Shown here: positions 54,526-61,370 of the stretch, piece after piece
Layout of the letters: each line of letters starts with the position of its first letter
How positions within the stretch are numbered: position 1 is the stretch's first letter
Source of the DNA: Psychrobacillus sp. FSL K6-4046
Lineage (GTDB): Bacteria > Bacillota > Bacilli > Bacillales_A > Planococcaceae
DNA: 64,000 bases
Assembly: GCF_038624605.1 (NCBI RefSeq)
Contig: NZ_CP152020.1
Location: 1,667,312 to 1,731,311, forward strand
Reading direction: 5' to 3'
Translations under genes and position numbers: made by a program
The notes under the pieces: model-generated
Database searches by the model: none
What the model was told of the DNA's origin: nothing
What the model saw: the letters and a program-made list of their open reading frames with translations, nothing else

Positions 54526-54582
54526 TAATTGCTTAGCAAATTATAAAATAAATTCTGAAAACCTATGGATAAAAAAACATAG

Positions 54583-54776
54583 GCGGCTTGCGCTTTTCTA
54601 TTTTGTCTAGCGCAAGCAGCCTTGCCCCTCGGGGTCAAATGGATAAAAGGTGCTCCTGCGCAAGCTTGTCGCAAACAAGAGCGTTTGTGGTGGCTGAGGG
54701 ACTGCCTCCTCGCTTTTTCCCATTTGCCTGTCGGGGCAGAAATAGGCGCTTGCGCTTTTCTTGTATAAAAGCTTAA
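54583..54776. repeat. GC-rich dispersed-type repeat with internal palindromes
   Basis: The block opens with GGCGGCTTGCGCTTTTC and closes with GGCGCTTGCGCTTTTC in the same direction. Inside, GCTTGCGC is mirrored by GCGCAAGC at 54611, and GCCCCTCGGGGTCAAATGG (54626) by CCATTTGCCTGTCGGGGC (54719). GC content is well above the flanks. Short frames cross it but lack ribosome binding sites. It fills the middle of the 455-base gap between spoIVB and spo0A. Confidence 0.65.
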
Positions 54777-54793
54777 AATGTAAATAACTATAA

Positions 54794-54942: not shown

Positions 54943-55734
54943 ATGGAGAAAATAAAAGTAGCAATAGTCGATGATAACAAAGATCTAATACGGACAATGG
55001 ACTCATATTTTGAACAACACCCTGAAATTGAAGTTATTGGTACCGCTTATAATGGGAAATTATGTTTGGAAATGTTAGAAAATATTAAACCAGATGTTTT
55101 ATTGTTAGATATAATCATGCCACATCTTGATGGAATTGCTGTATTAGACTCACTCCAAAAAAATGATAAGCTAAAGGGATTACAGGTTATTATGTTAACT
55201 GCTTTTGGCCAGGAAGATGTGATGAAACAAGCAGTGGATTTAGGTGCCTCTTACTTTATGCTAAAGCCTTTTGAATTTGACCGTCTTGTAACACAGATTA
55301 TTCAAGTCGCTGGAAGACAGGGATCCATGCAGGAAGCGCCAGTTAAGTTAAACCCAGAAAAAGAAGCACTACAAAACAAGCGGATGATCGATAACACCAT
55401 TACAAATGTTATTAAAGAAATGGGTGTTCCCGCGCATATTAAAGGGTATTCTTATCTTCGAGAAGCAATTCAAATGGTGTATTCAGACATTGAGCTGCTT
55501 GGATCAATTACAAAAGTTTTATATCCTGAAATAGCAAAGAAATTCCAAACAACACCTTCCCGTGTAGAACGCGCTATTCGTCATGCCATTGAAGTAGCAT
55601 GGAACCGAGGTAACTATGAAACTATTTCTAAAATGTTTGGATATACCGTCCATCACTTAAAATCTAAACCTACTAATTCAGAATTCATCGCGATGATCGC
55701 AGATAAAATTCGCATGGAGAACATGGCTAGCTGA
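54943..55734 (+). CDS. spo0A: Sporulation master regulator Spo0A
   Basis: Response regulator that starts sporulation when phosphorylated by the phosphorelay. The 263-residue protein has a receiver domain with Asp10, Asp11 and the phosphate acceptor Asp56 (LLLDIIMP), and Thr and Lys in LTAFG and LKPF. The C-terminal effector domain has the recognition helix [15 protein letters not shown]. Length equals that of other Spo0A proteins. AAAGGTGG precedes the ATG. The last 24 codons lie in an 85-bp repeat that recurs at 56930, so the 3' end may have been supplied by an integrated element. The encoded tail ([16 protein letters not shown]) is nearly the same in both copies. Confidence 0.98.
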
Positions 55735-55746
55735 GAGGGATAGAAT
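55662..55746 (+). repeat. Direct repeat 1 at the spo0A 3' end (putative attachment site)
   Basis: These 85 bases recur at 56930-57014 with 7 mismatches. A core of 43 bases (55692-55734 and 56960-57002), ending exactly at the spo0A stop codon, is identical. The arrangement fits the att sites of an element integrated into the 3' end of spo0A. Confidence 0.85.
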
Positions 55747-55834
55747 CGCGGTTTGCCGGGAAGTACAAACCAACCAACTTCTGAATTTTTTGACTTAATC
55801 TGTATTTCAAAGCCTATAAACTAATATCAACAAA

Positions 55835-55867
55835 GCCAACGAATTATTTGATTCGCTGGTTTTTTTG
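55835..55867 (+). terminator. Terminator after spo0A
   Basis: GCCAACGAAT pairs with ATTCGCTGGT (one mismatch, one G-U), loop of 6, then seven T residues. It lies inside the putative integrated segment. Confidence 0.75.
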
Positions 55868-55892
55868 TGTTTTTACAAAAAGGATGAAAAAT

Positions 55893-56044
55893 ATGAAAAT
55901 CACAGAATTAGAATTTTATTTGGAAGATTTTCTGACGTATTGTAAGTAAAGATCTAATCTAAAAAAACACTTTCATCTTATGAAAAATCCATTAAATTAT
56001 TTTTGATTTATTTGAAGGAGGAGTTTTTATTTGATTCTCCCTAA
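55893..56044 (+). pseudogene. Remnant of a tyrosine recombinase (integrase) N-terminus
   Basis: ATG 55893 opens a frame MKITELEFYLEDFLTYCK that meets TAA at 55947. After the stop and a one-base shift, the text continues KKTLSSYEKSIKLFLIYLKE (from 55961). Together they read like the N-terminal core-binding (SAM-like) domain of phage-type integrases. The catalytic domain is missing. AAGGATGAAAAAT lies upstream. It is immediately downstream of spo0A and between the two direct repeats, as expected for the integrase of an element using spo0A as its site. Confidence 0.72.
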
Positions 56045-56090
56045 AAGGTGAAGTTTAAAAAATCATACCTCTGATAATACCTTCCATTTT

Positions 56091-56126
56091 AAAAAAACAC
56101 TACAAAGGTAAAACCCTTGCAGTGTC
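56091..56126 (-). terminator. Terminator of the leftward gene at 56133
   Basis: On the minus strand, ACACTGCAAGG pairs with CCTTTGTAGTGT (one bulge), followed by seven T residues. Confidence 0.75.
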
Positions 56127-56132
56127 AATTCA

Positions 56133-56675
56133 TCATTTCCAATAGAATGGTGGAAATCCACACTCTTTATATATTTCATTGTAATCAGCAAAACAATATT
56201 CACCAAATTCATCTAGATCTTTATATTCATCTAGGACTTTTCTAAGTTCTACAAAAAGTTCCTTATCAACTTCAACAAATGAATCTTCAAATCGTTTTTG
56301 AATATCCAACTTTATTAAAAACCTTATCAAGTCCTCATATAGTAACGGATAATCTTTTTTTATACTTTCTTTATTTTCTAAGAATGATTTAATGTAATCT
56401 TCGAAAAGATAAATTTTATTTGAATCAGCATATCCATATTCTTCTCTTTCTTTAAGTGGTGCGAAGACAGTACCCGTTCCCTGCCACGTTTTTCCAAGAC
56501 CAGACCAAAAGATAATAAGAGAACACTTACGTAATTCGGGATCAGGATGATTAAAATATTTAAAGTAATCGTCATAATATTCGTGTCTCCATTGGCCGTG
56601 CATATCAAATAAAAAGTCGCCTTCTTCAATACCTCGTAATATCTTTTTAGCTTTTTCAATTGGAGTTAGTGACAT
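56133..56675 (-). CDS. Hypothetical protein, possible immunity-type cargo
   Basis: A 180-residue acidic, aromatic-rich soluble protein (WRHEYYDDYFKYFNHPDPELRK, LIIFWSGLGKTWQGTG, then a helical second half ending FGEYCFADYNEIYKECGFPPFYWK). I do not recognise a family with certainty. ATG 56675 is chosen because AGAGGAAG lies 8 bases upstream; ATG 56699 is also in frame. It lies between the spo0A direct repeats, is strongly AT-rich, and follows a gene tail at 56818-56933 in the same direction. A small acidic protein just downstream of a truncated larger gene is the pattern of an immunity gene behind a toxin. This is inference. Confidence 0.6.
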   Translation of the reverse strand: MSLTPIEKAKKILRGIEEGDFLFDMHGQWRHEYYDDYFKYFNHPDPELRKCSLIIFWSGLGKTWQGTGTVFAPLKEREEYGYADSNKIYLFEDYIKSFLENKESIKKDYPLLYEDLIRFLIKLDIQKRFEDSFVEVDKELFVELRKVLDEYKDLDEFGEYCFADYNEIYKECGFPPFYWK

Positions 56676-56817
56676 TGGGTTTCTTCCTCTCATCTTCAAT
56701 ATTTAGGTAAATTAAAATCTAGGGTACATTGTTAGGATAACATAATCATACTTGGTGCCACCCCATTGGAAAGATTTCTTATATATAACCTGTATTTTTT
56801 TCCATTAAATCATTTGG

Positions 56818-56933
56818 TTACATAGCATAAGTAGATTGAAATTTCCCTGCAGTTGTGTTTTTAATCTTTCCCTCTGTATATCTCATGTAATCAAAAATAT
56901 GAAAATATCCGTAGGAGTTCAAGTCTCTTATCT
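56818..56933 (-). pseudogene. Tail of a truncated leftward gene (possible toxin C-terminus)
   Basis: Reading leftward, a frame of about 38 codons (YGYFHIFDYMRYTEGK then IKNTTAGKFQSTYAM and TAA at 56818) ends 143 bases before the start of the 56133-56675 gene. It runs into the direct repeat at 56930, where no upstream part of a gene continues. It looks like the 3' end of a longer gene cut off at the junction. The sequence is too short to name. Confidence 0.4.
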
Positions 56934-57014
56934 AAATCTACTAATAATGAATTCATCGTGATGATCGCAGATAAAATTCGCATGGAGAACATGGCTAGCT
57001 GAAAGGGTTAGAAT
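56930..57014 (+). repeat. Direct repeat 2, displaced copy of the spo0A 3' end
   Basis: Matches 55662-55746 at 78 of 85 positions. The codons of the Spo0A tail and its stop (57000-57002) are conserved, although no gene precedes them. Third-base and near-stop changes suggest it is an older chromosomal or related spo0A end, not a recent slip duplication. After it, up to 57341, only a G-U-rich hairpin (about 57042-57093) and AT-rich sequence are visible. Confidence 0.85.
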
Positions 57015-57341: not shown

Positions 57342-58931
57342 ATGGAATGGGTGAGAAACTTGATAATAGAAGATAATGATCACATAACCTTGTCTGTAAA
57401 GGATGGTAAGGTTTTTCTTTTTACCAAAAGAGAAGGATACAGTTTGAAAAAATTTGAAGAATATCCTCGAAAAAATCCTCGCTTTAAAATTACAAGCTTT
57501 ATGACATTAAAAAAAGCTCTATCGGGTAAGTCTACGGAACCAATCGAAATTGGAAATTGGATTGATTTGGTTGAGTTAGATGTTAGCTTAGACTATATGC
57601 AGGCACTTATAACTGTTAATGAATCAACAAGCTATATTGAAGAAAATATAATAGAAGTACAATCTCAAATACATATTGCATTAGAAAAAAATAATATTAC
57701 ATATGGCAAAAAAAACATAGATATATTGTCTTTAAAGCCCGGAAAACCGTTTATTATAGCTCAAGGTACACCACCTCAGAAAGGTTTAGATGCACAAGTA
57801 AGCTATTTAGCGCAGGCTGAAAAAAAACCGGTTATTAATGAAGATGGTAAAGCAGATTATTTTGATATGAATTTTTTAAAAGAGATCCATGAGGGCTCAT
57901 GGTTAGGAGAGAAAATACCCGCTAAAGAAGGGGTGGATGGAACGAATCTATATGGGGAAACTGTTAAAGCTGCTCCTGGAGACGACATCACCCTTAAATA
58001 CGATCCCAAGACAGCCTACGAAATAGAAGAGGGAGGAAAAATTGTACTTCGCTCGAAAACAAAAGGTGTAATTGGAGAAGTAAATGGGGTTCTCTCTGTA
58101 TTAAAGCATTTGGTAGTTGACGGAGATGTCGGTATAGAAACAGGAAATTTGAAATTCGATGGGTCAATTCAAGTGAAGGGCACTGTAATGGCTGGCTATT
58201 CAGTAATTGCTTCTGGAGATGTATCTATTGAAGGGAAAGATGGCGTTAATTCAGCTGAACTGATCAAGTCTGCTGAAGGAGATGTCTTTATAAAAGGAGG
58301 CATTTTCGGACGGGGAGTAACAAAGGTGGAAGCTCATAATAATATATATCTTAAACATGCAAATGAATGTACATTAGACGCAAAGGAAAATATACATATC
58401 GGTTTCTATGCCCTAGGTGTTTCTATGTTTGCCAATGAAATTATATTGGACGAACGTAAAGGGAAGATTATTGGTGGAAAAGCTGTGGCAGTTCATTCGA
58501 TTACTACGGCATATAGTAGTAATAGTATGGAAAGGAAGACAGAGTTAATTGTACAGGGAATCGATCGAAAAATTTTAACTGAAAATGCAAAGATGCTAGC
58601 AGAAAAAATAGTACAGTATCAAGAAGAATCGACTAAATTAAACTATCAAATCAGTCAGCTAGGTCAGTTCAAAGGCAAAATGACAACGCAACAAAATGGA
58701 ATGTATGAACAGGTTAAACAAAAATATAATCTGCTACAGCAAGAAATGAAAGAAGCTGATAAGGAAATCCAACGAATTTTAAGGATGTTAAGAAGTAAAG
58801 CGGAATACTATGTGAATGTTACAAAAGAAGCTAATCCGGGTACCTATATACAAATAGGTAATAAATCTACCTTCGTAGCAAGTACTACAAAAGGAAAATT
58901 TAAGTTAGAAAATGGGGAGTTAAATGTCTAA
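57342..58931 (+). CDS. FapA (DUF342) family protein
   Basis: A 529-residue protein with the FapA/DUF342 layout. An N-terminal part (to about 190) contains GTPPQKGLDAQVSY, then GSWLGEKIPAKEGVDGTNLYGE. A central right-handed beta-helix (about 250-390) has repeats such as DGDVGIETGNLKFDGSIQVKG, and a C-terminal coiled coil spans about 410-480. The family has been linked to polymer or flagellar functions, but the role in Bacilli is unclear. The start is uncertain: ATG 57342 has a weak site, while TTG 57360 has GGGTGAG 5 bases upstream. The next gene overlaps its end by 8 bases. Confidence 0.85.
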   Translation: MEWVRNLIIEDNDHITLSVKDGKVFLFTKREGYSLKKFEEYPRKNPRFKITSFMTLKKALSGKSTEPIEIGNWIDLVELDVSLDYMQALITVNESTSYIEENIIEVQSQIHIALEKNNITYGKKNIDILSLKPGKPFIIAQGTPPQKGLDAQVSYLAQAEKKPVINEDGKADYFDMNFLKEIHEGSWLGEKIPAKEGVDGTNLYGETVKAAPGDDITLKYDPKTAYEIEEGGKIVLRSKTKGVIGEVNGVLSVLKHLVVDGDVGIETGNLKFDGSIQVKGTVMAGYSVIASGDVSIEGKDGVNSAELIKSAEGDVFIKGGIFGRGVTKVEAHNNIYLKHANECTLDAKENIHIGFYALGVSMFANEIILDERKGKIIGGKAVAVHSITTAYSSNSMERKTELIVQGIDRKILTENAKMLAEKIVQYQEESTKLNYQISQLGQFKGKMTTQQNGMYEQVKQKYNLLQQEMKEADKEIQRILRMLRSKAEYYVNVTKEANPGTYIQIGNKSTFVASTTKGKFKLENGELNV

Positions 58932-59978: not shown

Positions 59979-60011
59979 GGGGCCTTCTAAAAAATGAATG
60001 AGGTGATGGAT

Positions 60012-61370
60012 ATGATGACGAAAAATCAAACCAATGAACGCGAACAATTAGAAATCTTGACTATTGAACAGTTGGTACCACAAGACCACCTTGTTCGTAA
60101 GTTAGATGAGGCAATTGATTTTTCCTTTATCTATCCATTGGTTGAAAATCTTTATTCGACAATAGGGAGACCTAGTATCGACCCAGTGGTACTTATCAAG
60201 ATGACTTTTATCCAATATACCTTTGGTATACGGTCCATGCGCCAAACCATTAAAGAGATTGAAACCAACATGGCATACCGATGGTTTCTAGGCTTTGGTT
60301 TCCATACCGAGGTTCCCCATTTCTCAACTTTCGGGAAAAACTATGTCCGTCGTTTTGCAGACACAGATCTATTTGAGCAGATTTTCTACAGAGTATTAAA
60401 GGAGGTCGCAGATCGTGGGCTCCTAAGCCCGGATCATGTCTTTATTGATTCGACCCATGTGAAAGCTAGTGCGAATAAGAGAAAGTTTGAGAAGAAGGTT
60501 GTTCGTAAAGAGACGCGGGCTTATGAAAAGAGGCTCCAGGAGGAGCTCAACCTCGACCGGGAAAAGCATGGGAAGAAACCATTCCCACCTGAAAAGTTTG
60601 AAAAGGAAGAGTACAAGGAGATTAAGGAATCGACAACAGATCCTGAAAGTGGTTACTACGTAAAAGATGAACGGACAAAGCAGTTCGCCTATTCTTTTCA
60701 TGCTGCAACAGACGAGAAGGGTTTTGTGCTTGCAAACATTGTCACACCTGGAAATGTTCACGACAGCCATATGCTTGAACCACTGGTTCAGAAGGTCATC
60801 GACCGGGTGGGACGCCCAGTCGTTGTTGCCGCTGATGCAGCCTACAAGACACCAGCTATTGCGAATTTCCTTTTAGAGAATCATGTCCTTCCTGCACTTC
60901 CGTACAAACGACCAATGACAAAAGAAGACTTCTTTAAAAAACACGAGTATGTTTATGACGAACATTATGACTGCTATCTCTGTCCCGAAGGACAGGTTCT
61001 TAACTACCGAACAACAACGAAGGAAGGTTATCGCCAGTATGCCTCAACTCCTTCTATTTGTGCCACGTGTCCAGTGATTGACCAATGCACGCAGAGTAAG
61101 AATAAACAAAAGATGATTCAACGTCATATCTGGCAAGATTATTTGGATGTAGCTGAGGACTTACGTCATAACTATGAAATGAAAGAAATTTATGGGAAGC
61201 GTAAAGAGACGATCGAGCGTGTCTTTGCCGATGCCAAAGAAAAGCATGGTATGCGATGGACAACCTTAAAGGGTCTTAAAAAATTGTCCATGCAGGCGAT
61301 GCTAACTTTTGCTGCCTTAAATCTTAAGAAGTTGGCCAGCTGGACCTGGAAAATGCCAAAAATGGCGTAA
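60012..61370 (+). CDS. IS1182-type transposase
   Basis: A 452-residue DDE transposase. The N-terminal domain is DUF772-like (PSIDPVVLIKMTFIQYTFGIRSMRQT and MAYRWFLGFGFHTEVPHFSTF). The catalytic residues are likely Asp in FIDSTHVKA, Asp in VAADAAYKTPA and Glu in ETIERVFADAKEKHG. A Cys cluster (CYLCPEG, CATCPVIDQC) lies between the last two. ATG 60012 is chosen because GAGGTG lies 7 bases upstream; ATG 59994 is in frame. The gene appears intact, so the element may be active. Confidence 0.92.
   Translation: MMTKNQTNEREQLEILTIEQLVPQDHLVRKLDEAIDFSFIYPLVENLYSTIGRPSIDPVVLIKMTFIQYTFGIRSMRQTIKEIETNMAYRWFLGFGFHTEVPHFSTFGKNYVRRFADTDLFEQIFYRVLKEVADRGLLSPDHVFIDSTHVKASANKRKFEKKVVRKETRAYEKRLQEELNLDREKHGKKPFPPEKFEKEEYKEIKESTTDPESGYYVKDERTKQFAYSFHAATDEKGFVLANIVTPGNVHDSHMLEPLVQKVIDRVGRPVVVAADAAYKTPAIANFLLENHVLPALPYKRPMTKEDFFKKHEYVYDEHYDCYLCPEGQVLNYRTTTKEGYRQYASTPSICATCPVIDQCTQSKNKQKMIQRHIWQDYLDVAEDLRHNYEMKEIYGKRKETIERVFADAKEKHGMRWTTLKGLKKLSMQAMLTFAALNLKKLASWTWKMPKMA

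Follow-up and report, generated by a model that had tools for sequence, protein, structure and literature searches.

Doubled 3' end of spo0A in Psychrobacillus as the probable scar of a decayed integrative element

Why should the end of the sporulation gene spo0A stand twice in one bacterial chromosome? In the stretch analysed here, 64 kb of Psychrobacillus sp. FSL K6-4046 (contig NZ_CP152020.1, positions 1,667,312 to 1,731,311; hereafter the window, its genome being G000), a spo0A gene of 263 codons with an intact reading frame lies at 54943..55734 on the forward strand, and its end is repeated 1268 bp downstream. Spo0A decides whether these bacteria sporulate. The locus is interpreted with high confidence as a decayed integrative element that was once inserted at the 3' end of spo0A, because the repeat is far above chance, the spacing of an integrase remnant agrees with that in relatives, integrases of the same clade are faithful to this site and an exact empty site was found in a relative.

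Doubled gene end in the window

A repeat search of the window gave two copies of 85 bases, the left one (attL-like) at 55662..55746 and the right one (attR-like), a displaced spo0A end, at 56930..57014, both on the forward strand and identical at 78 positions (92%). The left copy consists of the final 73 bases of spo0A, including the stop codon, and 12 following bases; the initial annotation gave the identity and spacing correctly and counted 72 in-gene bases, which has to be corrected to 73. Its 43-base identical core was recovered in the repeat alignment, with the TGA stop as the end of the run. Compared with the end of spo0A, the right copy carries two amino-acid changes within the last 20 codons. 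The second-best 85-base match across the window reached only 39/85 and the maximum in 50 windows simulated with a first-order Markov model was 44/85, so that a chance repeat could be ruled out. The bases behind the stop are GAGGGATAG in the left copy and of the GAAAGGGTTAG style in both the right copy and G172, a genome of the same species; both types resemble those behind spo0A in an element of another genus (G021, see below). The window spo0A is 100% identical to that of G172 and 96% to that of G001. An attachment site in a transfer RNA (tRNA) gene was also considered and was dropped, since ARAGORN detected no tRNA gene in the window.

Between the two copies, a terminator-like hairpin with a T-run (55836..55866, forward strand; its inverted repeat was reported by the scan on the opposite strand) follows spo0A and immediately precedes the remnant of a tyrosine-recombinase gene at 55893..56053 on the forward strand. 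By eye the hairpin is similar to the one preceding the integrase gene of G261, and also to the spo0A flanks of several congeners without integrase. The remnant covers the N-terminal part only, and a stop and a shift of frame split it into two pieces, 55893-55955, corresponding to residues 1-21 of the intact G261 integrase with 71% identity, and 55958-56053, corresponding to residues 23-54 with 59% identity (match E 8e-12). The recombinase remnant of the initial annotation is therefore real. The catalytic domain PF00589 was not found in the window copy, in which matches are confined to residues 1-54, and the gene is, as judged from its sequence, a remnant. It starts 159 bp past the spo0A stop, and the corresponding distance in relatives is 144-189 bp (broken integrases being left out).

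The initial annotation also placed several orphan genes here, of which a single one is convincing, an open reading frame (ORF) of 188 amino acids at 56133..56699 on the reverse strand, taken from the ORF list; a Pfam scan gave no match at E<=0.01. It is probable leftover cargo. Matches to this gene are present in 7 of 19 genomes of the genus, and it lies at spo0A in G000 and G172; the homologue in G014 (74%) is located elsewhere, on a different contig from spo0A, as would fit mobile cargo. The far side of the locus is marked by a gene at 57342..58931 on the forward strand, which we take to be DUF342/FapA-like. Where it was detected in flanks without integrase match, this gene starts 106-2105 bp past spo0A, except for G010 with 12.1 kb, and where elements occur it lies up to 32 kb from spo0A.

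An integrase clade at spo0A and its elements

Three spo0A-linked integrases served to build a clade profile, which was applied to 261 genomes of the family and to a class sample of 398 genomes. At E<=1e-50, 22 places were detected in 21 of the 261 family genomes, and all 22 had spo0A directly upstream on the same strand, one of them (the second element of G088) having a displaced tail instead of the gene. The class sample gave matches in 8 genomes, 7 of them outside the family; six of these seven are behind a full-length spo0A, and the seventh, G359, is behind a weakly matched displaced tail (E 0.013), the gene itself being followed by an older integrase relic. In total, 29 of 29 places were behind spo0A or a displaced spo0A tail. 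Among the named loci, which belong to Lysinibacillus, Viridibacillus, Rummeliibacillus, Solibacillus, Lentibacillus and Ectobacillus, spo0A is upstream in 12 of 13, the thirteenth being a second integrase inside an element. Nearly full-length family members scored at least 382 bits and non-members at most 141 bits, broken members falling between and below. None of the eight next-scoring intact integrases had spo0A within about 1.5 kb; the ninth next-scoring locus is a broken clade member in G180, located behind spo0A, as are broken members in G080 and G178. Based on these genomes, the clade integrase appears to occur almost only at the end of spo0A.

The catalytic domain PF00589 is present in the clade (P0001-P0003, E 2.6e-27, 1.6e-24 and 4e-26), and the residues R, HxxR, GH and Y, which form the tyrosine-recombinase motif, were seen by eye. 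The integrase of G103 is 83% identical to that of G021, which belongs to another genus, and 52% identical to that of G086 of its own genus, which speaks for transfer. Annotated phages and plasmids gave 313 and 2492 matching records, respectively, every one below 60% identity. Relatives were found on 14 contigs of IMG/VR, five with a spo0A tail upstream; on the remaining contigs no more than about 90 bases separate the integrase from the end of the examined stretch. The IMG/VR contigs L096 and L095 were considered as free circles (attP). L096 has one spo0A tail and may be of this kind; in L095 the two tails about 12 kb apart fit a tandem array better.

The elements of several genera share a common layout: spo0A, an integrase gene on the same strand at the distance given above, cargo, a second spo0A tail and the DUF342/fapA-like gene. 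In G021 the whole takes 4.5 kb, including a 331-amino-acid integrase, small genes and a perfect 73-base copy of the spo0A end in front of the DUF342/fapA-like gene. The type strain Viridibacillus arvi DSM 16317 has an element of the G021 type (L083). The far copy ends 14.8-17.4 kb past the stop in nine genomes (G088, G093, G035, G184, G175, G189, G103, G261 and G086), at 23.1 kb in G173, at 18.7 kb in G284 (broken integrase), at 10.1 kb in G226 (a relic), at 4.5, 4.0 and 3.8 kb in G021, G111 and G229, and at 2.4 and 2.1 kb in the relics G177 and G100. The elements of G594, G588, G560 and G293 span 19-36 kb, whereas G084, G109, G083 and G537 gave no far copy. Larger islands with an adjoining integrase, for which the initial annotation proposed a search, do exist downstream of spo0A: elements with both an intact integrase and a second tail range from 4.5 to 36 kb. 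A search at the DNA level indicated further doubled tails among the 261 family genomes. Two consecutive elements with three tails are stacked in G088 (L121-L123). As a separate observation, stacked elements with several displaced tails were also seen at spo0A in G359 (L232).

The cargo was annotated for three elements. That of G086 (10 proteins scanned) includes a repressor-like helix-turn-helix protein, a weak DnaD-like match, Neck1-like protein, tape measure and TerS; that of G103 (10 proteins scanned of 15 ORFs) an SU10-type capsid, TerL, portal and holin; and that of G261 (8 scanned) a protease-capsid fusion, a helicase-like protein and SIR2-type and AAA proteins. From these genes the elements look like phage satellites or reduced prophages. 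The SIR2-type and AAA proteins (L146 9329-13039) are possibly involved in phage defence. G086 has a second integrase near the right end (L054 3724-4521), which shares about 30% identity with the first kind; the same type was seen near the right end of the 16-kb elements of G088 and G093.

Exchange of the gene end and local history

A direct view of insertion is given by G086 and G087. The flanks of G086, joined without the element, are identical to G087 over 1243 of 1243 bases, and the empty site called for by the initial annotation is thereby available once in exact form. In G086 the DNA immediately behind spo0A belongs to the element, and the native flank is located beyond the far copy; the gene stops with TAG in front of the element, and the copy at the far end has TAA. 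Near and far copies were compared in 20 pairs, of which three (G229, G284 and G100) were left out for an out-of-register far copy. Over the last 20 codons the other 17 pairs show 31 synonymous changes, stop changes included, and 6 non-synonymous ones, indicating that the gene end is swapped and the protein kept. The initial annotation supposed that insertion swaps the end of the regulator; this holds for the stop and terminator, which are exchanged, whereas the encoded end stays the same or nearly so.

The same layout in several genera and the exact empty site support the proposal of an element that inserts into a gene end. The parent elements would be phage- or satellite-like, with a tyrosine integrase that recognises the end of spo0A, the repeats having about the last 20 codons in common. 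The attachment site of the element would carry the same gene end, and integration would join the chromosomal spo0A to a stop, a terminator and at least part of a tail brought by the element, the old tail being displaced to the opposite end. Most of the window element would since have been lost, leaving the start of the integrase gene, one cargo gene and both tails. We infer that the window element was once complete and that recombination was performed by the clade integrase itself, and likewise where the crossover is located and in which order G000 and G172 lost their parts.

It may be asked whether the left side in the window is element-borne at all. The stretch from stop to hairpin looks alignable by eye with that of the integrase-less congeners G012, G007, G008 and G004, so that the terminator may be native. 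An element would then have been integrated beside a native left flank and terminator, the right copy would be the tail that it carried, and the spo0A end of the window would not have been swapped. This is rather unlikely in view of the opposite order in G086 and G087, where spo0A runs straight into element DNA and the native flank comes behind the far copy. Furthermore, a seemingly empty flank can represent an old scar; that of G087 retains an integrase N-terminus. The hairpin flank, shared with integrase-less congeners, would be native or else an old scar that the genus has in common.

Several other observations bear on the proposed insertion of an element in the window, most of them against it. 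The profile, made from three spo0A-linked integrases, could itself favour spo0A-linked members. A weaker broken clade fragment in G178 (C1:2175718-2175981, L261) has no spo0A within about 2 kb and may mark another kind of attachment site or be a relic that has moved. None of the 19 genomes of the window's genus has a clade integrase at E<=1e-50, and neither G172 nor G001 offers a clean empty site for the window's own copy. A second spo0A tail was not seen downstream in 16 of 17 other species of the genus, of which 11-20 kb were compared; the seventeenth, G010, has a longer copy of the spo0A 3' end without integrase, a partial copy of 336 bp about 240 bp downstream of the gene (L045, about 1430-1790). 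G228 has a second tail 1.0 kb downstream, and the intervening DNA gave no integrase match. Tails of spo0A without integrase therefore do occur. In this G010 locus the fapA-like gene is preceded by about 11.5 kb with other genes, most of which look metabolic.

The genome of the same species, G172, is the most relevant of these cases. It carries the 188-amino-acid gene and a single repeat, without the integrase remnant, so that the local history of the window element is partly inferred. The initial annotation named relatives with the same genes and a single repeat as a sign of simple tandem duplication. G172 agrees as to the 188-amino-acid gene; it also lacks the remnant and is rearranged at this position, a 48-base stretch near the expected right repeat (window 56838-56891) being inverted (L053). 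Its state would reflect a later loss of the right repeat and the remnant, and the reverse order of events, with the single-repeat state first, may also apply.

Together with G010 and G228, G172 also favours a plain segmental duplication, by which slippage or illegitimate recombination copied the spo0A end 1.27 kb downstream, the integrase fragment being unrelated debris. Such an origin is very improbable, since the remnant is closest to the spo0A-linked integrases and starts at the distance found in relatives, and since copies of the same gene end enclose complete elements in other genera, one of them with an exact empty site.

If the window holds a decayed element, as preferred here, similar relics may be expected elsewhere. 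At E<=1e-3 an integrase or fragment was detected in 16 of 86 family flanks, two of which are doubtful (G277 being weak and G091 1.5 kb away), and in none of 85 reversed control flanks. The 86 flanks are not a random sample, because most were picked for a window-like spo0A tail, and two of them (G178 and G228) began at a displaced tail rather than the gene; in G178 an integrase relic is located behind the true spo0A. Adding 16 further genomes from the clade profile and G180, G178 and G080 to the 16, an integrase or fragment is found behind spo0A in at least 35 of 261 family genomes, or 33 without the doubtful G277 and G091; spo0A itself was found in 227 of the 261 at E<=1e-80. The integrase N-terminus in G087, which is empty relative to G086, indicates serial occupation.

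The hairpin, known systems and neighbouring features

The hairpin in front of the integrase was analysed at 36 integrase loci, some of them close relatives, and the window, 37 in all, of which 25 had a measurable ribosome-binding site. At 24 of the 25, at least 4 ribosome-binding bases are paired in the hairpin (z -2.7 to -8.7 against mononucleotide shuffles), and at the remaining one (L111) the site was wrongly picked by the pattern. The typical order is a stable hairpin with the ribosome-binding site in its 3' arm, a T-run and a start codon nearby. The twelve loci without measurable site (pattern absent or no integrase match) include the window and the G261-like kin; in the window and the G261 type the hairpin is present and the ribosome-binding site is separate and located after it. 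In 12 of 22 elements the first 185 bp behind the spo0A stop contain words like CCNATAAA, where few would be expected; as an arm-type motif they carry little weight because they were chosen after looking.

The end of spo0A would be almost the only observed home of a phage-like clade that supplies the stop and terminator of the gene, so that the life cycle of the element and the control of sporulation meet at one spot. It becomes testable whether integrase transcription follows spo0A, whether the elements leave before the spore is made or stay in it, and how the regulator copes with having its end replaced again and again. In Bacilli the spo0A end may also serve as a marker by which satellites and prophages can be located. 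A wider view, tentative and itself doubtful, is that mobile DNA has repeatedly rewritten the last codons, stop and terminator of spo0A across Bacilli, including species that look empty, and that the element-borne hairpin might couple the integrase to read-through from spo0A and thereby mobility to the sporulation decision.

A switch of the skin type, in which the element interrupts spo0A and excision is needed for sporulation, was rejected as extremely improbable, the reading frame being intact. The window spo0A is a complete frame, and in nearly all element-bearing relatives spo0A covers the full query without stops, G109 having one internal TGA. SpoIVCA of skin is a serine recombinase, that of yin has been likened to it, and the recombinase of the present clade is of the tyrosine type. 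As a side observation, the spo0A frames of G006, G002 and G109 each contain one internal stop, which may reflect a genuine loss or an error of sequencing.

What skin, yin (PMC10747680) and gin (PMC5595907) share with the spo0A elements is the location of mobile DNA at a sporulation gene; they interrupt their gene, whereas the spo0A elements keep it intact. The elements agree better with those that restore the end of a tRNA, transfer-messenger RNA or protein gene, in the direct repeat of the gene end, the integrase at one end and the working target, and differ in the target, here spo0A. The general rule that attP carries a replacement for the 3' end of the target gene is given in PMC10111431, which also describes integrase clades tied to one kind of site (shared attB). 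In comparison with these clades and with the helper-embedded phage-inducible chromosomal islands (HE-PICI), the tie of clade to site is alike, and the spo0A elements carry an integrase and spare spo0A. In the accessible portions of the open-access literature spo0A was nowhere named as an attachment site, although site tables of surveys may list it; in the accessible text of PMC3715440 and PMC5027557 spo0A occurs in the reference list only. The Psychrobacillus phage PVJ1 inserts at the 3' end of deoD with a 42-bp core and hardly changes the product (PMC8779076). It resembles the present elements as a temperate phage of a possibly related host whose core falls close to the 3' end of a protein-coding gene, and differs in the gene used. 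Phage-inducible chromosomal islands (PICI) and capsid-forming satellites look alike in the size of about 15-17 kb, the integrase at the left end and, in the three annotated elements, head and packaging genes; gene sets vary among the spo0A elements, which may or may not depend on a helper phage. In Tn916 a terminator near the element end shields the element from host transcription (PMC11658703). A terminator near the end, putative in the spo0A elements, is common to both, whereas the predicted hairpin of many spo0A elements overlaps the integrase ribosome-binding site.

Two features outside the doubled end were also observed in the window. Just upstream of spo0A, at 54560-54790, the DNA is GC-rich with inverted-repeat-like 'gcgcttgcgc' words and has the look of a dispersed repeat. 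Downstream of the fapA-like gene, an ORF of 458 amino acids at 59994-61370 is transposase-like, presumably of the IS1182 kind.
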